A stretch of 28,571 bases of DNA, taken from the IMG/VR virus record IMGVR_UViG_3300035011_000011, positions 1 through 28,571 of that record; one strand, written 5' to 3'. This document shows, piece by piece, positions 12,276 through 23,201 of the stretch; the stretch's first letter is position 1, and each line of letters begins with the position of its first letter. The DNA is from a virus. The translations under genes were made by a program, and so were the position numbers. The notes under the pieces were generated by a model. That model made no database searches. It saw only the letters and a program-made list of their open reading frames with translations, and was not told where the DNA came from.

Positions 12276-12761
12276 ATGGTTCTGAAGCTCTCCTCCCTCC
12301 GAGCCAACCTCGATCGCGAAGCCAAAGGCGATTGGGTTCCCTCGCTCAAGTGGCCGGGCGTCGAGTTCCTCGTCTCCGCCCTGACCAAGCCCTCCTACCG
12401 TATCAAGCGCGACGCTCGCATCCAGCAGCTGTCTCGGCGGTACAAGGGGCAGCCCATCCCCCCCGAGAAGCTGGCGCCGGTCATCGGCCGCCTCTACTGC
12501 GAAGAGATCCTGCACGGCTGGCGGGGCATGGATACGCCCTATTCGCCGGAGGTCGCGCTCGAGACCCTCACCGATCCTGCCTTCCGCGAGGTCGTCTCCG
12601 AGGTCGAATACTGCGCCGGCACCCTCAGCGAGGTCGACCCCGAGTTCTCCGATGATGCCGAGGCGCTCGGTGAGGAGGGCGAGCCGGAGGACGATCTGGG
12701 AAAGTCCGCCGCGCCTTCCGTGCCCGCCTCGAGCGCCGCGGAGACGAGTTCGGCTTCCTAG
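12276..12761 (+). CDS. Tail assembly chaperone, gpG-like (161 aa)
   Basis: Equivalent of lambda gpG, which coats the tape measure protein before tube polymerisation. The helical core (LKWPGVEFLVSALTKPSYRI at about 24-43, and APVIGRLYCEEILHGWRGM at about 67-85) has the pattern of short phage tail chaperones, followed by a helical segment and an acidic stretch (about 115-140, EEGEPEDDL). The slippery heptamer GGGAAAG falls in the zero frame as G-GGA-AAG at codons 142-143. Ribosomes that do not slip end here after 18 more residues. The ATG is chosen as the start that begins MVLKLSSLRA; no strong ribosome binding site is seen. Confidence 0.8.
   Translation: MVLKLSSLRANLDREAKGDWVPSLKWPGVEFLVSALTKPSYRIKRDARIQQLSRRYKGQPIPPEKLAPVIGRLYCEEILHGWRGMDTPYSPEVALETLTDPAFREVVSEVEYCAGTLSEVDPEFSDDAEALGEEGEPEDDLGKSAAPSVPASSAAETSSAS
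12698..12704 (+). promoter_or_regulatory. Programmed -1 frameshift site (GGGAAAG)
   Basis: GGGAAAG lies in the gpG frame as G-GGA-AAG, the X-XXY-YYZ arrangement and the same heptamer used by lambda G/GT. A -1 slip gives codons GGG-AAA then GTC at 12704, and that frame stays open for 128 codons to the stop at 13090. Product: 143 residues of G plus 128, total 271, very close to lambda gpGT (279). Confidence 0.85.
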
Positions 12762-13090
12762 CCGATCTCATGGATGAGGAGCCTGACGCTGCTGCGGCGT
12801 TGGGCGATCAGATCGATGGGATCGAGGACGAAGAGATGCCGCCTTGGGCCGGCTATCTCTTCGATGCCTGGAACGCGCTCACCAACGATCGCCATCGCGG
12901 CGACATGGGCTGGTGCTCTGGCATCTTCTACCAGAGCATCAGCGCGTACGCCCGCGATCACGGCCTAATGGGCGACCTCTTCCCCGACTTCCTGCTCTTT
13001 CTCCGGGCAATGGACGACGAGTACGTCGCCTTTGCCGCCGAGCAGGCCAAGGCCGCCGCCGACAAGGCTCAGCGCGAGCGATCCGCATGA
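12704..13090 (+). CDS. gpT-like part of tail chaperone fusion (by -1 frameshift)
   Basis: This is the downstream part of the G/GT fusion. After the slip at 12698-12704 the reading frame continues as VRRAFRARLERRGDEFGFLADL (22 residues) and then the 106-residue region starting MDEEPDAAAALGDQ at 12770. The latter has a PPWAGYLFDAWNALTNDRHR segment, an FYQSISAYARDHG helix, and a helical Ala/Lys-rich end. In lambda, gpT is only made as the fusion and carries the tape-measure contact. The ATG at 12770 could be used alone, but it lacks a ribosome binding site. The stop overlaps the tape measure ATG (ATGA, 13087-13090). Confidence 0.8.
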   Translation, partial: VRRAFRARLERRGDEFGFLADLMDEEPDAAAALGDQIDGIEDEEMPPWAGYLFDAWNALTNDRHRGDMGWCSGIFYQSISAYARDHGLMGDLFPDFLLFLRAMDDEYVAFAAEQAKAAADKAQRERSA

Positions 13091-16000
13091 CGACAAAGCT
13101 CTCTTCCCTTCGCGTCACCGCTGAGATGGACGTGTCGCAGTATGTGCGCGCGGCTGCTCAGAAGGTGTCTGCGGATGGGGACATGGTCGGGTCGGCCAAG
13201 GTAGTTGGACAGGCTCTGGCGGCGACCGATGCCGCCGCCAGCAAGGCCGTGCCCGGTGTCGCCTCGCTGTCGCGCGTCTGGATCACCGGCTATGGCGACG
13301 CGGCGAAGTTCGAGAGCGCAGTCCGGTCGGTCGGCAAGGCTCTCGATCGAGGGATGGACCCGGCTCGCGCCGCGATTCAACTCGATGGGGTCTATCGAAA
13401 GTTCGGGCAGACGGCCGATGCTGCGAGCCTGGCTCGCCAAGGCTTCGTCGCCTTGGCCCCGGTTGTTGCCGCGCTCAACGATCGCTACGATGTCAACGCC
13501 GCCGTCGCGGACCGCGCGGCCGCCGCGACCAAGCGGCTGGCCGATGCCCAAGCGGCGCAGCAGCGCATCAATGCCTCGTTCGGGATCGGTGCCAGCGCCG
13601 GCTCGGCGCAGGATTCCGCCGATGCGTTCCTGGGATCGGTCGGTGGCCTGGAAGGTGTGGCCAGGGCTCGTGGGCGTGCCGTCGCCGAGAGCTTCACGCA
13701 ATCGCTGAACGAGGGCCTGATCGCCGGCGCCCCGCGTTCGGCGCGGCAATCGGCCAGCGCCTTCACCGACTATTTCGACGCCATCGCCGCTGACATCAAG
13801 CGCCGCGAGGTCGAGGTCGCCGCGAGCGTCGAACGTATGCATGCGGTGCAGCAGCGGCTGCAGCAGGTCCACCGCATCGGCTACCAGTTCGACAGCACGC
13901 CCGGCGCACGCGCGTCGATGTCAGCCTTCATCGAGGAGGATGAGCGCGCGGTTCGCAGCCTGACGCAGGCGTATGATCCCCTGCTTGTGAATGAGCAGCG
14001 GCGCAATGAGGCGTTGAAGACCGCCCAGGGGCTCCTGGCACGGCGGGCTATCGATGAGAAGCAGTACGCGACCATCGTAACCAACGTCGGCAAGGTTCAC
14101 GACGACACTCAGAAGGCGTTGGTAGGCGCGTTCACGGCGACCGGGAAATACACGTCGGGCATGGGCCTCGCCCGCCACGAGATGATCAACTTCGGCCGGC
14201 AGGCGCAGGACGTCTTCGTCTCGCTTGCCTCGGGGCAGGGCGTGCTCACGGTCCTGATCCAGCAGGGCACCCAGATCGTCGACATCTTCGCGTCTTCGCG
14301 CGGCACCGTCGGCGGGTTCCTGGGCCAGATCGGGCCGGTGCTGTTGCGGGCCCTGCCGGCTATCACCGCGGTCACAGCCGCGCTCGGAGCTTTGTATGCG
14401 GCGTTCAAGGTCTCGGGCGAGCAGCAGACGCTCAGCAATTTGCTGTTGGGCGCGGGCCGGGCGTCGGGGCTCACCGGTGGGCAGCTGGAGGGGCTGGCGA
14501 GGGAATCCGCGCAGGCCGCGGACATCACAGTCTCGAACGCCCGCCTGATTGGCGCCGAGTACGTCAAGCTCGGCCGGATCGCGAATGACAACCTGCCGAA
14601 GCTGACCCAGATCACGAAGGACTATGCCGCGGCGACCGGACAGGACCTGAAGAACTCGGCGCAGGAAATCGCTCAGGCTCTCGCTGATCCGACGCGTGGC
14701 GCTCAAGGTCTCAGCGACAAGATCGGCGGGCTCGACAGCACGACGCTGCGGATGATCCGCACCGCGACCGATTTCAACGACAAGCTCCGGGCGCAAAAGC
14801 TCCTGATGGAAGAGCTCGGCCGGGCGACCGACAATGCGGCCGACCAGTCGCTCTCGAAGTGGGACCGCCTCACCAAGGAAATGGGCCTGGTCTTCGGTCG
14901 CCTGAAGGAGGGCGCTGCCGGCTTAGTCATGGGGCCGGATCGCAGCGAAGAAATCGTCGCTGCTCGCGAAAGGATTGGTGGGCTGGAGAGGCGCCTTGCC
15001 AACACTCGTCCTGATAGCCGCTACAGCGATCTTGCGGCCAAGCGGGAGCTTGATGACGAGCGGGGAAGACTGGCGGTCCTGGAGGAAGCCGAGAGGAAGA
15101 CCAGAGACCTAGCGTCGGCGCGCGCTCGCGCCAGCGAGGCGAACAAGCGCGTGGCGGATGGCGAGGCCGCCACGCTCGCCACCAACAACCAGGGCCTCGC
15201 GCAGCGCCTGCGTCTCTACAACGAGACGATCGGGCAGGCGAACACGCTGGAGAAGAGCATCGGCGAGCTTCGTGCCCGCCGCGATGGCATCGGCGTCCCG
15301 GATGCGGCTAATCGAGGCGAATTCGCCACGCTGACGCAGCAAATAAAGGAGCAAACCGAGGCGCTCGAGGCGCAGAAGCGCCGGATCGCCGACCTGCAGT
15401 CCGTCCAGAGTGGACTGACGATGGAGCAAGAGCGGGCGCGCCGCGGCACGGAAATCGACCTGAAGGCTTCGCGGGACAAGACGCTGGCGGACGCTCAGGA
15501 AACCGCCGCTATGCGCGCCCGCAACGAGGTCTTCGGCACGGCGAGGACGCAGGCCGAGGAAGACTTGCGGGTCAAGCAGGCGCAGCGCGAGGCAGCGGTG
15601 CGCGGCACCGTGGCAGTCAACGAGCAGTCGAAGGCGCTCCAGGATGGTATTGCGGTCTCGAACGCGCAGACGGAAGCGTTTCGCCGCGGGGGTGTCGCCG
15701 CCGCCGAGGTCGCTCGCATCCGGAAGGAGGCCGAGCAACAGGCACGCAGCACCGGCGGCGATGTCGAGGTCATCTTCCGGGATCGGCTGAACAAGGAGAT
15801 CGCGGAGACCAAGCGCGGGCTTGCCGAGAAGCTCGCCTTGCAGAAGCAGGAGGTCTCGGCAGCTTCGGCGGCGAATTCCGCAGCTGCGGCCGGCAACCTA
15901 TCCGCGAAGCAGCGCGCGGACCTCGAGGAGCGGCTTCGGATCGAGCGGGAAGCGTACAACAAGCTGATCGCGACCGGGCTGGTCAGCGAGAGGGAGGCGG

Positions 16001-19000
16001 CGCGCCTGGCCCGTGAGCAGGCGAACTCGGTCTCGCGCGCCCAGTCCGCCCGGACCGACAGCGAAGCGCTCGATTACCTCTACCAGCAGAGGCAGACGCT
16101 GGAGGCGCAGCGCAAGCAGATCGAACTCGTCGGGCTGACGCGGTCGGCGAGGTACGAAGAGCTCGAGGTGCTCCGCGCACAGCAGTATCTCGTCGAGCGC
16201 GGCATCTCGCAGGAGAGCGAGCGCGGCAAGGAGATCCTGCGCAACGCGCGATTGATCGGCGAGCAGAACAAGCAGCTGGAGCAGCAGGAGCGCATCCAGC
16301 ATCAGATCCAGCAGGCGCTGGAGTTCAGTGCCGACAGCGTGAAGTCGTTCCTGGACGAGTTACTGACCGGGACCGAAGGTCTGAACGGCGCGCTGAAGTC
16401 GCTCGGCAAGGGCTATCTGTCGGCCTCGATCGACGCGCTCATCTCGGGCAAGGGGCCGCTCGCCGGGCTCACCGGCATGGCCTCGACGACGCGGGACGGG
16501 CAGGGCGGTCTGCTGGGGATGCTCTCCACCGGGATCGCCGGTCTTGGCAAAGAGGTCCAGAAGGGCGCCGAGAAGGGCACCGCCACTGGCGCAGTCACTG
16601 GCTTCGGCGCGATTGCGGCCAACGACAATGGTGGCGGTCTGCTGCGGGGCCTCGGCATCGACGGCAAGCAACTGGCGGGCGGTCTCAGCGCGATCGCTGG
16701 CCTGGCCGGCGCCTATGGCTCGGGCATGCAGGCTGGCTCGTTCGCGCAGGCGGTGGGCGGCGGCGCGCTCTCTGGCGGCATGGCCGGCCTGTCGCTCGCA
16801 GGCGCCGGATTCGGTAGCGCGGCGGTGCTGGGACCGATCGGCCTGATCGCCGGCGCTGGCCTTGCCTATTTCGGCCAGCAGCAGGCGCGCAAGCAGGCGA
16901 GGGAGGCTCGCGAGCGGGAAGCGGCGGAGAACTATCGCCAGGCCCAGCCCGACTTCATCAAGCTCGGTTCGCAGCTGCGCGGCGACCCACAGGGCACGCT
17001 GGCGCAGCAGATCGCCGAAGCGGAGACTTCTGCGCGCAAGCTGGCAGACATCGCCTTCTTCGCGAACAAGCTCGACGAGGCGGCGAAGATCTGGGGCGAC
17101 AGCCAGACCTATCGCAACCGGGTGCTCAGCGAGTTCCGCGACGGCTACGGCGGAAACGTCAGCGCGCTCGAGCAGGGCGTCGGCCCGGACAGCCCGTTCA
17201 GCCGCGCGAAGGAGGCGGTTAAGGCGCTCGGCGATCAGCTCGAGGTCTTCATCGACAACACGAAGACCGCCTTCGGCGACGGCGCGAGCGAGGTCGAGCG
17301 CTCTCGGCAGGCGGCCCGCGACTATGCGGTCGCCGTGCTGGGCGGGGCGAAAGAGCTCTCGGCCGTAGCGAGCCGGATGGAGGAGATCCGCGGCACTGGC
17401 GCCGGGCTGGAGAAGGTGCTGACCGACCTCGGCATGTCCGCAGTCGAGGCTGCCCGGGCTGTCGCGGAGGGAGTGACTGCTGCTCTGGTGCGGCTGAAGG
17501 AGGCCTTCGAGACCGATCTCAGTCGCAAGACTAATGACGCGCTCGACAAGGGCTACCTCAATGATACCGCCGACCTGCTGAAGGAGCTCGCCACGCTGCG
17601 GGCCGACGCAGCGGCGCTCGGCTCCGATCAGGGCCTCGTCACCGATTATTTCACCGCGGCGGCGCAGGGCATCGTCAACGGCGCGAACCTCACCGGACAG
17701 GCCTTCGCGGATCTGCTCGCCCGCTTCCCCGAGCTGATCGGCGTGGTGCGTGAGGCCGGTGTCACGATCGACGCCGTCGCCCGTGCCGCCGAGGCGGCCA
17801 ATCGCCGGCTGTCCTATCAGGACCGCGTCTTCGCCGCGGCGAACGACACCTCGACGCTTGCGGGCCAGCTCGCCGCCTTCGACCGACAGGCGCAGCGCGA
17901 GCGCGAGGCCGAGATCAAGGCCGGCGGCGAGGCGATCAACGATCTCGAGATGGCTCTGGCCGCCGAGCGCCTCAACATCATCGAGGACTTCGCCAACCGC
18001 GCGGCCGAGGAGCAGAAGCGCGCCTTGCAGGAGGCGCAGAACTTCTTCGACAATTTCACGCGCAACCTGAAGCAGTTCGTCGACGGCATGCGGTCCGGCT
18101 CGGACTCCCCGCTTTCCCCGGAAGCGCGGCTCGCGGCGGCGCAGTCCCAGTACAATGCCCAGCTCGCTTTGGCGCAGTCGGGCAATCGCGACGCGATCAA
18201 CGGCCTGACCGGCTATGCCGACGCGCTGCTCGATGCCGGCCGGGCCTTCTACGGCTCGTCGACCGGCTTCCAGACGATCTTCGAGCAGATCGCCGCTCAG
18301 CTGACGGCACTGCCGACGCAGGTCTCGGCCGAGCAGTTCATCGTCGACGCGATCAACGAAAGCCGCGACGCGCTGCTCGCCTCGCTCGACACGAATGGCG
18401 ACGGGATGATCTCGCTGCAAGAGGCGGCGAACACGGCGCTTGCCGCGATCTTCTCCGAGCTCGACCTCAATGGCGATGGCCAGATCAGCAAGCTCGAACT
18501 GATCCGGGGTGCGACGCAGTCGACCGCCGGCGCGACGGAGGCTCAGAACAGTATCCTCGCCGCCCAAAGTAACATCCTCGTCCAGACGCAGGGCATCACC
18601 AATGCGAGCTACAGCCTGCAGGGCAGCGCAAACTCGATCCTGTCGACGCAGGCCGCGCTGCTCGACCAGATCAGGGCACTGAACGGCACTTCCTCGGCGA
18701 CGCTTGCCGCGCTCAACGGCCAGTTCACCCAGCAGACCGTGATCGAGATCGCCGGCTATCGGTCCGAAAACAACATGGTTACCGGCATCAACAAGATCGT
18801 CTTCAACACCGCATCGGCTGCGGCGGCAGCGAAGGCGCCCTTTGTCTTCTCCGGCGGCGGCTTCACCGGCTTTGGCGGCAAGTACGAGCCGGCGGGCATC
18901 GTCCACAAGGGCGAATACGTCATGCCGCAGGAAACCGTGAACCGCTTCGGTCGGCCCTTCATGGAAGCGGTGCATCGCGGCGAGATGCCGGCCGTGCCGA

Positions 19001-19230
19001 TGCCGATGATGCTGCCGCCAGCCAACAACAACGACGGCAGCCGCGCCATCGTCGCTGAGCTCCGGCGCCTGCATGACCGGATCGCCGATCTGGAAGAGCG
19101 CCTTGTTGCGGCGGAGTACGGCGCGGCTGCGGGCATCAAGGCCAGCGTCGACGATGTCTCCAAAGAAACCCGCGCCGCCCGCGCCGATGCGCGTCAGAGC
19201 CGGAACGATCCGCGCAAGCGCGCGGCCTGA
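13087..19230 (+). CDS. Tape measure protein (2047 aa) with EF-hand pair
   Basis: Sets tail length and is ejected first at infection. Residues about 359-402 contain MGLARHEMINFGRQAQDVFV and QQGTQIVDIF, the signature of lambda gpH/TMP_2 proteins. Next come a hydrophobic segment (about 410-440), long coiled coils (about 640-1080), and a Gly/Ala-rich hydrophobic region (about 1172-1265) that could cross the host membrane. Two EF-hand-type loops follow (residues 1768-1779 DTNGDGMISLQE and 1793-1804 DLNGDGQISKLE), then the YEPAGIVHKGEYVMP motif (from 1933), common at TMP C-termini, and a terminal coiled coil. At 2047 residues it is over twice lambda gpH (853), implying a long tail, about 300 nm at 0.15 nm per residue. 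A start at 12844 would overlap the chaperone gene; 13087 in the ATGA overlap is right. Confidence 0.92.
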   Translation: MTTKLSSLRVTAEMDVSQYVRAAAQKVSADGDMVGSAKVVGQALAATDAAASKAVPGVASLSRVWITGYGDAAKFESAVRSVGKALDRGMDPARAAIQLDGVYRKFGQTADAASLARQGFVALAPVVAALNDRYDVNAAVADRAAAATKRLADAQAAQQRINASFGIGASAGSAQDSADAFLGSVGGLEGVARARGRAVAESFTQSLNEGLIAGAPRSARQSASAFTDYFDAIAADIKRREVEVAASVERMHAVQQRLQQVHRIGYQFDSTPGARASMSAFIEEDERAVRSLTQAYDPLLVNEQRRNEALKTAQGLLARRAIDEKQYATIVTNVGKVHDDTQKALVGAFTATGKYTSGMGLARHEMINFGRQAQDVFVSLASGQGVLTVLIQQGTQIVDIFASSRGTVGGFLGQIGPVLLRALPAITAVTAALGALYAAFKVSGEQQTLSNLLLGAGRASGLTGGQLEGLARESAQAADITVSNARLIGAEYVKLGRIANDNLPKLTQITKDYAAATGQDLKNSAQEIAQALADPTRGAQGLSDKIGGLDSTTLRMIRTATDFNDKLRAQKLLMEELGRATDNAADQSLSKWDRLTKEMGLVFGRLKEGAAGLVMGPDRSEEIVAARERIGGLERRLANTRPDSRYSDLAAKRELDDERGRLAVLEEAERKTRDLASARARASEANKRVADGEAATLATNNQGLAQRLRLYNETIGQANTLEKSIGELRARRDGIGVPDAANRGEFATLTQQIKEQTEALEAQKRRIADLQSVQSGLTMEQERARRGTEIDLKASRDKTLADAQETAAMRARNEVFGTARTQAEEDLRVKQAQREAAVRGTVAVNEQSKALQDGIAVSNAQTEAFRRGGVAAAEVARIRKEAEQQARSTGGDVEVIFRDRLNKEIAETKRGLAEKLALQKQEVSAASAANSAAAAGNLSAKQRADLEERLRIEREAYNKLIATGLVSEREAARLAREQANSVSRAQSARTDSEALDYLYQQRQTLEAQRKQIELVGLTRSARYEELEVLRAQQYLVERGISQESERGKEILRNARLIGEQNKQLEQQERIQHQIQQALEFSADSVKSFLDELLTGTEGLNGALKSLGKGYLSASIDALISGKGPLAGLTGMASTTRDGQGGLLGMLSTGIAGLGKEVQKGAEKGTATGAVTGFGAIAANDNGGGLLRGLGIDGKQLAGGLSAIAGLAGAYGSGMQAGSFAQAVGGGALSGGMAGLSLAGAGFGSAAVLGPIGLIAGAGLAYFGQQQARKQAREAREREAAENYRQAQPDFIKLGSQLRGDPQGTLAQQIAEAETSARKLADIAFFANKLDEAAKIWGDSQTYRNRVLSEFRDGYGGNVSALEQGVGPDSPFSRAKEAVKALGDQLEVFIDNTKTAFGDGASEVERSRQAARDYAVAVLGGAKELSAVASRMEEIRGTGAGLEKVLTDLGMSAVEAARAVAEGVTAALVRLKEAFETDLSRKTNDALDKGYLNDTADLLKELATLRADAAALGSDQGLVTDYFTAAAQGIVNGANLTGQAFADLLARFPELIGVVREAGVTIDAVARAAEAANRRLSYQDRVFAAANDTSTLAGQLAAFDRQAQREREAEIKAGGEAINDLEMALAAERLNIIEDFANRAAEEQKRALQEAQNFFDNFTRNLKQFVDGMRSGSDSPLSPEARLAAAQSQYNAQLALAQSGNRDAINGLTGYADALLDAGRAFYGSSTGFQTIFEQIAAQLTALPTQVSAEQFIVDAINESRDALLASLDTNGDGMISLQEAANTALAAIFSELDLNGDGQISKLELIRGATQSTAGATEAQNSILAAQSNILVQTQGITNASYSLQGSANSILSTQAALLDQIRALNGTSSATLAALNGQFTQQTVIEIAGYRSENNMVTGINKIVFNTASAAAAAKAPFVFSGGGFTGFGGKYEPAGIVHKGEYVMPQETVNRFGRPFMEAVHRGEMPAVPMPMMLPPANNNDGSRAIVAELRRLHDRIADLEERLVAAEYGAAAGIKASVDDVSKETRAARADARQSRNDPRKRAA

Positions 19231-19297
19231 CCCCGCCACCCACCGTTGACCACCCCAGCCGGCGCAATCCAGCGCGCGGCCGCAGAAGGACGCCCTC

Positions 19298-19705
19298 ATG
19301 AGCGCGATGTCGAACCACCTGGAGAAGAAGCTGCTCGACCACACGCTTGGCCTGGCTTCATGGACCATGCCGGCCGAGACCTTCGTCGCGCTCTTCACCG
19401 CCGATCCCGGCGAGACCGGCTCGCTGGCGGCCGAGATCTCGTTCACCAGCACGGGCTATGCGCGCCAGAGCGCGACGACCGCGATGGGCCCGACCAATGC
19501 CACGACCGGCATCAGCCTCAACGAGGACGTCATCACGTTTGGGCCTGCCACGGTCGACTGGGGCACCGTTACCCACATGGCGATCATGGATGCGGCGACC
19601 GGCGGCAACGTCCTGCTCTATGGCGCGCTGACCTCGTCGCGCAACATCCAGACCGGCGACAGCTTCCAGTTCGCCGCCTCGCAGCTCAGCATCACGTTTG
19701 CTTGA
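19298..19705 (+). CDS. Minor tail protein, gp80-like family (135 aa)
   Basis: A β-rich small tail protein. It shows ETFVALFTADPGETGSL (about 26-42), GYARQ and, in the second half, FGPATVDWGTVTHMAIMDAA with NVLLYGALT. The layout V-A-L-(F/H)-T-x-D-P-G... Y-A-R-Q ... T-H-(M)-x-I-x-D-A matches the family that includes mycobacteriophage gp80-type proteins, found near the tail tip, where its function is not established. An AAGGA ribosome binding site eight bases upstream supports the ATG at 19298. The next gene is a shorter paralogue. It follows the tape measure by 67 bases. Confidence 0.75.
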   Translation: MSAMSNHLEKKLLDHTLGLASWTMPAETFVALFTADPGETGSLAAEISFTSTGYARQSATTAMGPTNATTGISLNEDVITFGPATVDWGTVTHMAIMDAATGGNVLLYGALTSSRNIQTGDSFQFAASQLSITFA

Positions 19706-20683: not shown

Positions 20684-22410
20684 TCGGTGGCCCTATCTCA
20701 GGCGCACCGATCGCGTCGGGCTATGGGACGCCGGAGCCGGTTGCGATCGCGCTCTCCGGTCGCGCGACGATCCTCGCGAATGGCCGTGCCGGGTTCGCGG
20801 GATCGCTGAGCCTGTCGGCCGCCGCGACGCTCAGTGCAACTGTCATCCGGGTGAAGTTCGGCGCGGCCGCTCTCAACGGCACCAGCAGCCTGGCGGGCCA
20901 GGCGCTGTTCCGCATCTATGCGGCAACCAAGGAGTTCATTACCCGGCCGACAGACCGTCTCGCCAACACGCCATTCTACGGCACGCTCCAGAAGGCGCTG
21001 CGCTTCGACCGTTCCATCCTGAGCGGTCGCGGGATCGGCGAGATCACCGCCGGCTGGGGTGAGCTCGAGCTGATCAATGCCGAAGCCGACTATGATGCCC
21101 TGATCGACCGCTATGCGATCGATGGCCGTCGCGTCGTCGTGCGCGTCGGGGCCGACGGTGCCTCCTATGATCAGTTCCGCACGCTGTTCGACGGGACCGC
21201 CGCGGACTGGGACGTCGAGGAGGATATCCTGCGGGTCTCGATCCGGGACAACAGCTACAAGCTCGAGGTGCCCGCTTCTCCCTCGCTTTACGCTGGCACG
21301 GGCGGCACCGAGGGCGGTGAGGATCTCAAGGGCAAGCGCAAGCCGCGCGCCTTCGGCCAGTGCGGCAACGTCTCGCCGCCGGCGGAGATCCCGGCTGAGC
21401 TGATCTATCGCGTCAATGACGGGCCGATCCATGCGGTGTCGGCCGTCTATGACCGGGCGGTGGCACTGGCCTTCGCCAGCGATTTCGCTTCCATCGCTGC
21501 GCTGCGCGCAGCGACCACTGGAGCCTTTGGCAGCGGTGCCGCGATCGAGGCCGGCGAGTATGCGACCTGCCTGGCTGACGGCTACATCCGCCTAGGCGGG
21601 TCGCCGGTCGGCACCGTCACCTGCGATCTGATGGGCGACAAGGCCGGTGGCGTCTACGTCGACAGCACGGCCGACATCGTGGAGCGCCTGCTGATCCAAA
21701 CGGCGGGATTGCAGGCCGGCACTGAGCTGAGCCAGCCGTCCTTCGATGGGCTCAATGCCGACCAGCCCAACGCCATCGGCTACTGGATGCCGGCAGGCTC
21801 GGAAGAGACGGTCGCTGCGGTGGCCTCCAGGCTGATGACGGCCGCTGGCGGCTGGGGCGGGTTTCGCCGCAATGGCCGCTTTGAGGTCCATCAGTTCAAG
21901 TATCCGGGCGGCATCCCTTCGGCGCGCTACAACCGGATCGATATCGTCGAGATCAAGCGCGAGCGGCTTCCGGCCGATCTTTCGCCGACGCCCTGGCGCT
22001 GGCGCGTCGGCTGGGGGCGGAACTGGACGGTCCAGACTGATGTCGACGGCCAGAGCGGCGTCACCCCGGCGCGGGTCGCCTTTCTGCGGGAGGAGGTGCG
22101 GCTCGCGGAGGCGTCGAGTGCGACGATCCGGGCCGACCGACCGCTCGGCAAGGATATCGAACCGATCGAGGCGTTCTTCGTCGCCGAGAGCGCCGCGCAG
22201 GCCGAGGCGAGCCGCTTGCTCGATCTCTATGGCCGGTCGAGCGCGCTCTATCGCATCTCGATGAAGGCGCAGGCCTTCATCCACGACATCGGCGACGTAA
22301 TCGAGGTGACCTATTCGCGCTGGGATCTCGGCGCCGGCCGGCTGCTGCGCATCGTCTCCATCTCCGAGGACACCGACGAGAACACCGTCGAAATCGTGGG
22401 GTTCGGCTGA
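20680..22410 (+). CDS. Tail hub / tip protein (576 aa)
   Basis: Begins MIGGPISGAPIASG with three units of the repeat family of the preceding gene (about 22-76), then a conserved block EFITRPTDRLANTPFYGTL, GRGIGEITAGWGELEL, DYDALIDRYAIDGRRVVVRVG, DISIRDN-like ILRVSIRDNSYKLEVP and LYAGTGGTEGGEDLKGKRKP, typical of a large tail protein family in alphaproteobacterial siphophages. The C-terminus (about 490-576, AEASRLLDLYGRSSALYRISM and GDVIEVTYSRWDLGAGRLLRIV) resembles the hub domain of lambda gpJ-type tip proteins. I infer that it forms the tail hub. ATG overlaps the previous stop by four bases; the next gene starts in its stop codon. Confidence 0.75.
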   Translation: MIGGPISGAPIASGYGTPEPVAIALSGRATILANGRAGFAGSLSLSAAATLSATVIRVKFGAAALNGTSSLAGQALFRIYAATKEFITRPTDRLANTPFYGTLQKALRFDRSILSGRGIGEITAGWGELELINAEADYDALIDRYAIDGRRVVVRVGADGASYDQFRTLFDGTAADWDVEEDILRVSIRDNSYKLEVPASPSLYAGTGGTEGGEDLKGKRKPRAFGQCGNVSPPAEIPAELIYRVNDGPIHAVSAVYDRAVALAFASDFASIAALRAATTGAFGSGAAIEAGEYATCLADGYIRLGGSPVGTVTCDLMGDKAGGVYVDSTADIVERLLIQTAGLQAGTELSQPSFDGLNADQPNAIGYWMPAGSEETVAAVASRLMTAAGGWGGFRRNGRFEVHQFKYPGGIPSARYNRIDIVEIKRERLPADLSPTPWRWRVGWGRNWTVQTDVDGQSGVTPARVAFLREEVRLAEASSATIRADRPLGKDIEPIEAFFVAESAAQAEASRLLDLYGRSSALYRISMKAQAFIHDIGDVIEVTYSRWDLGAGRLLRIVSISEDTDENTVEIVGFG

Positions 22411-23201
22411 TGCCGCTTGCAAGTAATGCCCGCATCGGCTGGCAGAACCGTGCCGACGAGGCCGGCATCTCGGCCTCAAGCTTCGTCATCGATACGCCGC
22501 CGGCGATCCTGCAGAACCCGCACGTCGCCCGCAAATGGCGGGGCGTTGCGGGGGAAGCGGAATATCTCACCTTCGATCTCGGCGCGCAGCGCTCGATCGA
22601 CTGCGTCGCGCTGATGGGGCTCAACCTCACCGAGGCGGGGCTCACCCGTATCCGCGCCTCGACCGGCGACAGCTCCGGCCAGCATGGCGATGCCCATGAC
22701 AGCGACCCGGCAGGGGCTAGTGCCGGGCGCGTCAACCCGCGTTACCCGTCGCTCATCCATCTCCTGCCGGCACCGGTCACTGCGCGCTATGTCCGCATCG
22801 ATCTGGCCGAGCCCGGGGCGCCCTACATCGAGGCGGGGCGCGCCTTCATCGGGCTCGCCGAGCAGGTCACCTACAATTTCGCCTTCGGCTGGCAGCGCGG
22901 TTTTGCCGACCGCAGCCGCACGACCAAGAGCCGGGGCGGGCAGACATATATCGACCGTGACAACGGGTATCGCACGCTCGACCTGACCTTCGAGGCGATC
23001 ACGCAGGAACAACGCTACGGGCTGTTCGAGGACGTCGACCAGTTCAACGGCAAGCGCACCGACATCCTGTTCGTCACCGACCCAACCAGTGGTGAGCTCG
23101 GGCGGGACGCGATCTGGGGCCTCGTCTCGGAGATGACGCCGATCGGCCAGCCCCATCATCGGACCTATTCCAAGACCTTCCGCATCGAGGAGCGGCTTTG
23201 A
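22410..23201 (+). CDS. Minor tail protein with discoidin-like domain (263 aa)
   Basis: The N-terminal half resembles a galactose-binding (F5/8 type, discoidin-like) jelly roll: NPHVARKWRGVAGEAEYLTFDLGAQRSIDCVALMGLNLT (about 36-75, the second part of which is the D-L-G-x-x-x-x-I-x-C-V-A-L strand), and ITARYVRIDL-like YVRIDLAEPGAP, AGRAFIGLA near residue 150. Cell-wall or surface sugar binding is the usual role of such domains. The C-terminal half (GRGGQTYIDRD…) has strands and ends FRIEERL. Starts in the stop of the hub gene (TGATG) and ends in the start of the fibre gene, so it is coupled to both. Likely part of the tail tip or adhesion complex. Confidence 0.7.
   Translation: MPLASNARIGWQNRADEAGISASSFVIDTPPAILQNPHVARKWRGVAGEAEYLTFDLGAQRSIDCVALMGLNLTEAGLTRIRASTGDSSGQHGDAHDSDPAGASAGRVNPRYPSLIHLLPAPVTARYVRIDLAEPGAPYIEAGRAFIGLAEQVTYNFAFGWQRGFADRSRTTKSRGGQTYIDRDNGYRTLDLTFEAITQEQRYGLFEDVDQFNGKRTDILFVTDPTSGELGRDAIWGLVSEMTPIGQPHHRTYSKTFRIEERL

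Follow-up and report, generated by a model that had tools for sequence, protein, structure and literature searches.

In the known siphophages, the tail tape measure protein (TMP) occupies the tail lumen as a trimer, its C-terminus being placed in the tip, and the rest of the protein is thought to form a conduit (PMC11101478, PMC11445458). The C-terminus located at the tail tip is the first part to leave in JBD30, T5 and lambda (PMC11445458, PMC11101478), and the TMP density in the lumen of JBD30 is only about 20 Å wide (PMC11445458). No EF-hands are reported at the C-termini of T5 pb2 and JBD30 gp46, which occupy the tip and are expelled first. A second system of reference is that of the RTX proteins, in which C-terminal calcium repeats of variable copy number stay unfolded while in the cytosol and acquire their fold outside, serving as a ratchet against back-sliding (PMC6891781). 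In the literature searched, which was covered in part, EF-hands in a TMP were not described, the matches for EF-hand together with tape measure were unrelated, and one study that screened the structural proteins of phage TP-84 for EF motifs found none, while NCBI automatic annotation labels one TMP of the kind considered here 'EF-hand domain-containing'. Within this partial coverage, EF-hands and TMPs were known separately, and what appears new is an EF-hand array of variable copy number at a fixed TMP site.

The stretch of DNA analysed here (the window) is an IMG/VR record of 28,571 bases from a phage, with genes for the terminase, portal, capsid, tail tube, tail assembly chaperone, TMP and endolysin (Table 1). 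The TMP was assigned from its profiles together with its position behind the G/GT chaperone in the tail operon, as it matched phrog_24 (2e-40) and phrog_16823 (2.3e-44), both of which are tail length tape measure families, and Pfam TMP_2 with 134 bits. An open frame listed from 12844 is longer than the TMP only in that it also spans the chaperone gene, in another frame. The chaperone gene itself (12276-13090) is of the lambda G/GT type, its slippery heptamer being read in frame as G GGA AAG, and a -1 shift at this point gives access to the 12770-13090 frame, which in turn has an ATGA overlap with the start of the TMP gene. Furthermore, a 1030-aa open frame lies antisense to the TMP gene (16360-19452, minus strand) and is probably a codon-usage artefact of GC-rich DNA. 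After the tail region, the gene at 22410-23201 gave a sub-threshold match to the F5/8 type C (discoidin) domain, and its product is a possible carbohydrate-binding tail protein.

Table 1. Features in and around the tape measure gene of the window
Feature	Positions	Strand	Basis and remarks
Slippery heptamer GGGAAAG, lambda-type, of the G/GT tail assembly chaperone	12698..12704	+	Sequence reading; downstream product phrog_3817 and Pfam Phage_TAC_18
Tail tape measure protein (TMP), 2047 aa	13087..19230	+	ATG start at 13087; ATGA overlap with tail assembly chaperone gene
TMP_2 domain (PF06791)	14146..14760	+	TMP residues 435-639
Conserved TMP block SPLSPEARLAAAQSQYNAQLALAQSGNRDAINGLTGYA...SAEQFIVDAI, marking the array site	18040..18354	+	Alignments; in relatives with and without EF-hands
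Predicted EF loop 1, DTNGDGMISLQE, 'even' type of TMP arrays	18388..18423	+	Residues 1768-1779; Pfam and even-hand HMM
Linker AANTALAAIFSEL, 13 residues; the family's usual odd-to-even linker, shortened here	18424..18462	+	Alignments
Predicted EF loop 2, DLNGDGQISKLE, the family's C-terminal 'even' hand	18463..18498	+	Residues 1793-1804; Pfam and even-hand HMM
C-terminal TMP motif GGGFTGFGGKYEPAGIVHKGEYV	18853..18921	+	Downstream of EF pair; common to >40 other TMPs without EF pairs

A sequence-only reading of this DNA had placed two canonical 12-residue EF loops in the TMP, with starts 25 residues apart, and both the loops and the spacing proved exact, leaving 13 residues between the loops. 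Each of them has ligands at positions 1, 3, 5 and 12, Gly6 and a hydrophobic residue at position 8. The same reading had proposed a profile search against the EF-hand families, in which EF-hand_5 (38.7 bits, cut-off 25.9), EF-hand_1 (28.5 bits, cut-off 25.4) and EF-hand_6 (25.1 bits, cut-off 25) exceeded their curated cut-offs in the window TMP. In the whole-record search, the EF pair was the one place in the window where EF-hand_7 exceeded its cut-off (34.4 bits with neighbours), although hmmscan of the whole TMP gave 23.7 bits for this model, below the cut-off of 30. A PROSITE-like loop pattern occurred 0.029 times per shuffled TMP over 2000 shuffles, and none of these 2000 shuffled window TMPs presented a pair of loops 20-40 residues apart; a chance motif was ruled out by these shuffles together with the homologues described below. 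The pair is located about 240-280 residues before the C-terminus.

Loss of acidic residues in close homologues had been named as evidence that would speak against functional loops, and it was not found, because the two nearest relatives with a compact pair (L002 and L122) retained both loops, every ligand and the 25-residue spacing. The first of them, a prophage of Bosea sp. WAO (L002, identical to L061), is 58% identical to the window over the C-terminal 509 aa, with the same loops at the same distance. Over the 37 codons from the first to the last loop residue, the two sequences present 10 synonymous and four non-synonymous differences, with none at loop positions 1, 3, 5, 6, 8 or 12. L122 represents the third compact pair, again with all ligands retained. 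We take the two loops to be a genuine EF-hand pair that selection has maintained, and predict that it binds calcium.

The pair sits immediately behind a conserved block of the TMP, whose consensus upstream of the EF loops is SP..RLAAAQSQY..QLALAQSGDR.AL..ITQYA..LLDA...YASS..FQ.I...L..LP.Q.SAEQF. EF-hands were found at the site following this block in >30 other TMPs, the N-terminal halves of which are of several kinds and the hosts of which, where known, belong to two proteobacterial classes. In these relatives, the usual form is one to six calmodulin-like pairs with loops 33-36 residues apart. A single such pair is present in L036, L052 (EBPR siphovirus 2), L057, L058, L069, L074 and L076, and also in L123, L125, L127, L131 and L133, while L003, L063-L068, L072, L084, L085, L088 and L126 have two or three pairs, in some cases including a hand that is degenerate. 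Larger arrays comprise seven strict loops in L086 and in L132, 10 in L128, 12 (six pairs) in L124 and at least 11 in L143, the TMP of a Halomonas qaidamensis plasmid. This last locus (NZ_CP080628.1, 31963-39438) lies on a 45.9-kb phage-plasmid-like replicon, where the TMP is annotated only as an EF-hand domain-containing protein. The EF-hand_7 scores of the multi-hand arrays tested ranged from 105 to 166 bits. Moreover, the DNA of L143 and L128 contains copies that recur with a period of 405 nt and are 65-77% identical, a pattern expected from tandem duplication.

A total of 129 loops were counted at the array site of 37 loci, 102 of which were distinct, as some loci are near-duplicates. Gly6 was present in 94 of the 102 distinct loops and Glu12 in 101, under a search pattern that left position 6 free, accepted D, E or N at position 12 and partly fixed positions 1, 3, 5, 8 and 9. 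An alignment of 12 sequences had Asp1 and Glu12 invariant in both loops of the terminal pair and Gly6 invariant in the last loop. In most loci, about 190-400 aa separate the last loop from the end of the TMP. The four proteins tested by PHROG beyond the window (L124, L143, L128 and L122) were all TMPs, with phrog_2335, phrog_2854 or phrog_24 as the best match on the N-terminal side, and Pfam TMP_3 was found in L124 and TMP_2 in L122. Since these N-terminal families differ, the array and its block are common to TMPs with different front halves. The pair that had been noticed inside the TMP holds as a pair but not as an isolated one, being the shortest member, or minimal form, of a tandem EF-hand array at a fixed, length-variable, C-terminal-proximal site in a group of siphophage TMPs.

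The array is not present in all TMPs that carry the block. EF-hands were absent from the block site in Caulobacter phage Sansa, Microcystis phage yong1, L059, L060, L062 (Methylobacterium) and L093, with nothing inserted at the array site in L059 and L062. In L078 and L090, the EF-hands are replaced by other tandem helical repeats of about 30 residues each, in view of which the site looks like a general insertion point for repeats. No EF pair was found in >40 TMPs sharing only the C-terminal GGYTG...VHKGEYV motif. Furthermore, an order-wide search of 397 genomes mostly returned ordinary cellular EF proteins, and long open frames with the TMP block appeared in three of these genomes: the Bosea prophage, L092, where the match reaches the last EF loop of the search model, and L093, which has no EF-hands. 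A tblastn search of 50,697 phage records recovered EF-hands at the array site in EBPR siphovirus 2 only, in line with the earlier remark that such motifs are not standard for TMPs. Its gp77 (JF412297) has the same block followed by an EF pair and is 43.5% identical to the window TMP over 66% of the query; it differs from it by a 33-residue spacing and a weaker first loop, and is annotated only as similar to tail protein. The function of the array is therefore not essential to TMPs generally, as related TMPs do without EF-hands at the same site, and by these searches the array is a specific, patchy feature rather than a general TMP trait. In addition, a block-bearing TMP relative on the Azospirillum argentinense plasmid p7 (L144) is annotated as a lytic transglycosylase, which suggests that TMPs of this kind may have an enzymatic domain in another region.

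With regard to described EF-hand families, the loops share the 12-residue D-x-N/D-x-D-G-x-I-x-x-x-E form of the calmodulin-like pairs (EF-hand_7, EF-hand_1 and EF-hand_5), and most relatives share their spacing of 33-36 residues as well. In contrast to calmodulin-like pairs, the TMP hands lie near the C-terminus of a virion protein, number up to 12 or more and are spaced by 25 residues in the window. Adjacent EF-hands of lanmodulins are 12-13 residues apart (PMC10232371), and the window loops, with 13 residues between them, share this separation. However, the proline that lanmodulins have at position 2 of one or more loops is absent from the window (T and L at this position), L002 (T/T) and L122 (T/I), and the window hands are not part of a small periplasmic protein. 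Lanthanide binding, considered on account of the spacing, was set aside, as nothing beyond the spacing pointed to it. The compact dockerin-like pair that had been suggested was also rejected, since a search at E<=1 gave no PF00404 (Dockerin_1) match in the window TMP; marginal PF00404 matches appeared in multi-hand relatives, with far stronger EF-hand_7 scores. The closest counterparts are instead the compact alphaproteobacterial EF pairs and lanmodulin, start spacings of 24-25 residues being common in the cellular EF proteins of Hyphomicrobiales.

The origin of the compact pair was approached with two HMMs, one of 36 'odd' TMP hands (the first of a pair) and one of 36 'even' TMP hands (the second of a pair), excluding those of the window, L002 and L122. 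The even-hand model scored 38.0 bits for loop 1 and 51.5 bits for loop 2, compared to 14.9 and 23.0 bits, respectively, for the odd-hand model, whereas it gave at most 31.7 bits for 51 cellular EF-hands of Hyphomicrobiales and at most 21.8 bits for the odd TMP hands. Because both window loops exceed all these maxima, the pair is read most simply as two even hands, probably joined after the loss of the intervening odd hand; alternatively, an even hand may have been duplicated in part. Unlike the cellular EF proteins that share their spacing, the window hands thus score as even TMP hands, which speaks against this phage having captured a host EF protein independently.

Structure predictions were of low confidence. 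AlphaFold2 with 11 sequences gave a helix-loop-helix-loop-helix arrangement with short strands in both loops, where the pLDDT was only 54-62, and a 90-residue model with the three compact sequences had the same arrangement without loop strands and was no better, the pLDDT being about 50-62 across both runs. With the longer model, Foldseek placed calmodulin 1y6w first (probability 0.90; E 0.056, not significant) and lanmodulin 8fns lower, while no EF match was returned for the short 90-residue model of low pLDDT. VIA-align reported the helical block only, and the EF part was not among its matches.

Taking the presence, homology, ligand conservation, fixed site and copy-number variation of the array as observed, we tentatively favour, at somewhat below even odds, a calcium-driven folding switch that would act during ejection, and rank it above a static site at the tip, a module for an envelope partner and a length filler. 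The TMP would be synthesised in the calcium-poor cytoplasm and packed there, its hands empty and flexible, and they would therefore fit the narrow tail lumen. On opening of the tail tip, the C-terminal part would exit first and meet millimolar calcium outside or in the periplasm, the EF pair, from its position in the protein, being among the first parts of the TMP to do so. The hands would then fold into compact domains, which might stop the TMP from sliding back and/or set a conformation for anchoring or for the DNA conduit. The RTX proteins offer a working analogy, as type I secreted proteins with variable C-terminal calcium repeats that pass a narrow channel C-terminus first, even though their beta-roll fold is unrelated, the phage uses no type I secretion and a ratchet role in phages is only presumed. 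Against such a switch, calcium binding is a prediction from sequence, the compact pair was modelled with low pLDDT, several related TMPs have no EF-hands at the same site, the tail lumen may not be calcium-free after virion release, so that the hands could load inside the virion before infection, and no such switch has been observed in a virion.

A purely structural calcium site comes next and is considered unlikely, although it is the strongest of the competing readings. Here, calcium bound during or after assembly would stabilise the C-terminal region of the TMP at the tip, docked on distal tail or hub proteins, without any switch at ejection. It would suit the holding of the TMP C-terminus in the tip of known siphophages (PMC11101478, PMC11445458), the putative ion on the axis of the JBD30 C-terminal trimer (PMC11445458) and the interval given above between the last loop and the protein end, which is consistent with a fixed near-tip position. 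However, a loop number that ranges at a single site from two to 12 or beyond is hard to reconcile with precise docking, and three folded pairs of ~25 Å abreast would by our estimate need about 54 Å, compared to a tail-tube lumen of 40 Å, a conflict that staggering could avoid.

Rather improbable is an envelope-interaction module, in which the ejected calcium-loaded arrays would bind a periplasmic or cell-wall partner, taking the place of the peptidoglycan-active or peptidase domains that this TMP region has in other phages. Binding modules often contain repeats in variable number. The transglycosylase annotation of the block-bearing Azospirillum relative and the zinc carboxypeptidase in the C-terminal region of the T5 TMP (PMC11445458) would fit such a role, but neither a partner nor an enzymatic motif was found, and the unrelated helical repeats of L090 and L078 favour a mechanical role over specific binding. 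Least probable of all is a length filler, in which any helical repeat would be tolerated and the hands would add only length or flexibility with incidental calcium binding, as the empty site of L059 and L062 and the non-EF repeats of L078 and L090 would allow, because the ligand residues are kept (near-invariant Gly6 and Glu12 over the 102 distinct loops, and unchanged ligands among the window, L002 and L122) and the compact TMPs apparently lost an odd hand while keeping two perfect loops.

Returning to the preferred folding switch, the array in related viruses suggests that calcium helps shape or drive the TMP as it leaves the tail to let the DNA in. In its widest and more doubtful form, the arrays scattered among proteobacterial siphophage TMPs would be calcium ratchets, empty and extended in the tail. 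By folding as they leave it, they would draw the TMP into the envelope or lock it there, and calcium binding would in this way power or time genome delivery. Many phages require calcium for infection, and the virion protein that uses it is mostly unidentified, while the role of the TMP after its exit is an open question in the field. A calcium module that is conserved, can be counted and lies in the first part of the TMP to exit would give a concrete handle on both questions, as it can be removed, mutated at single ligands and studied in isolation.
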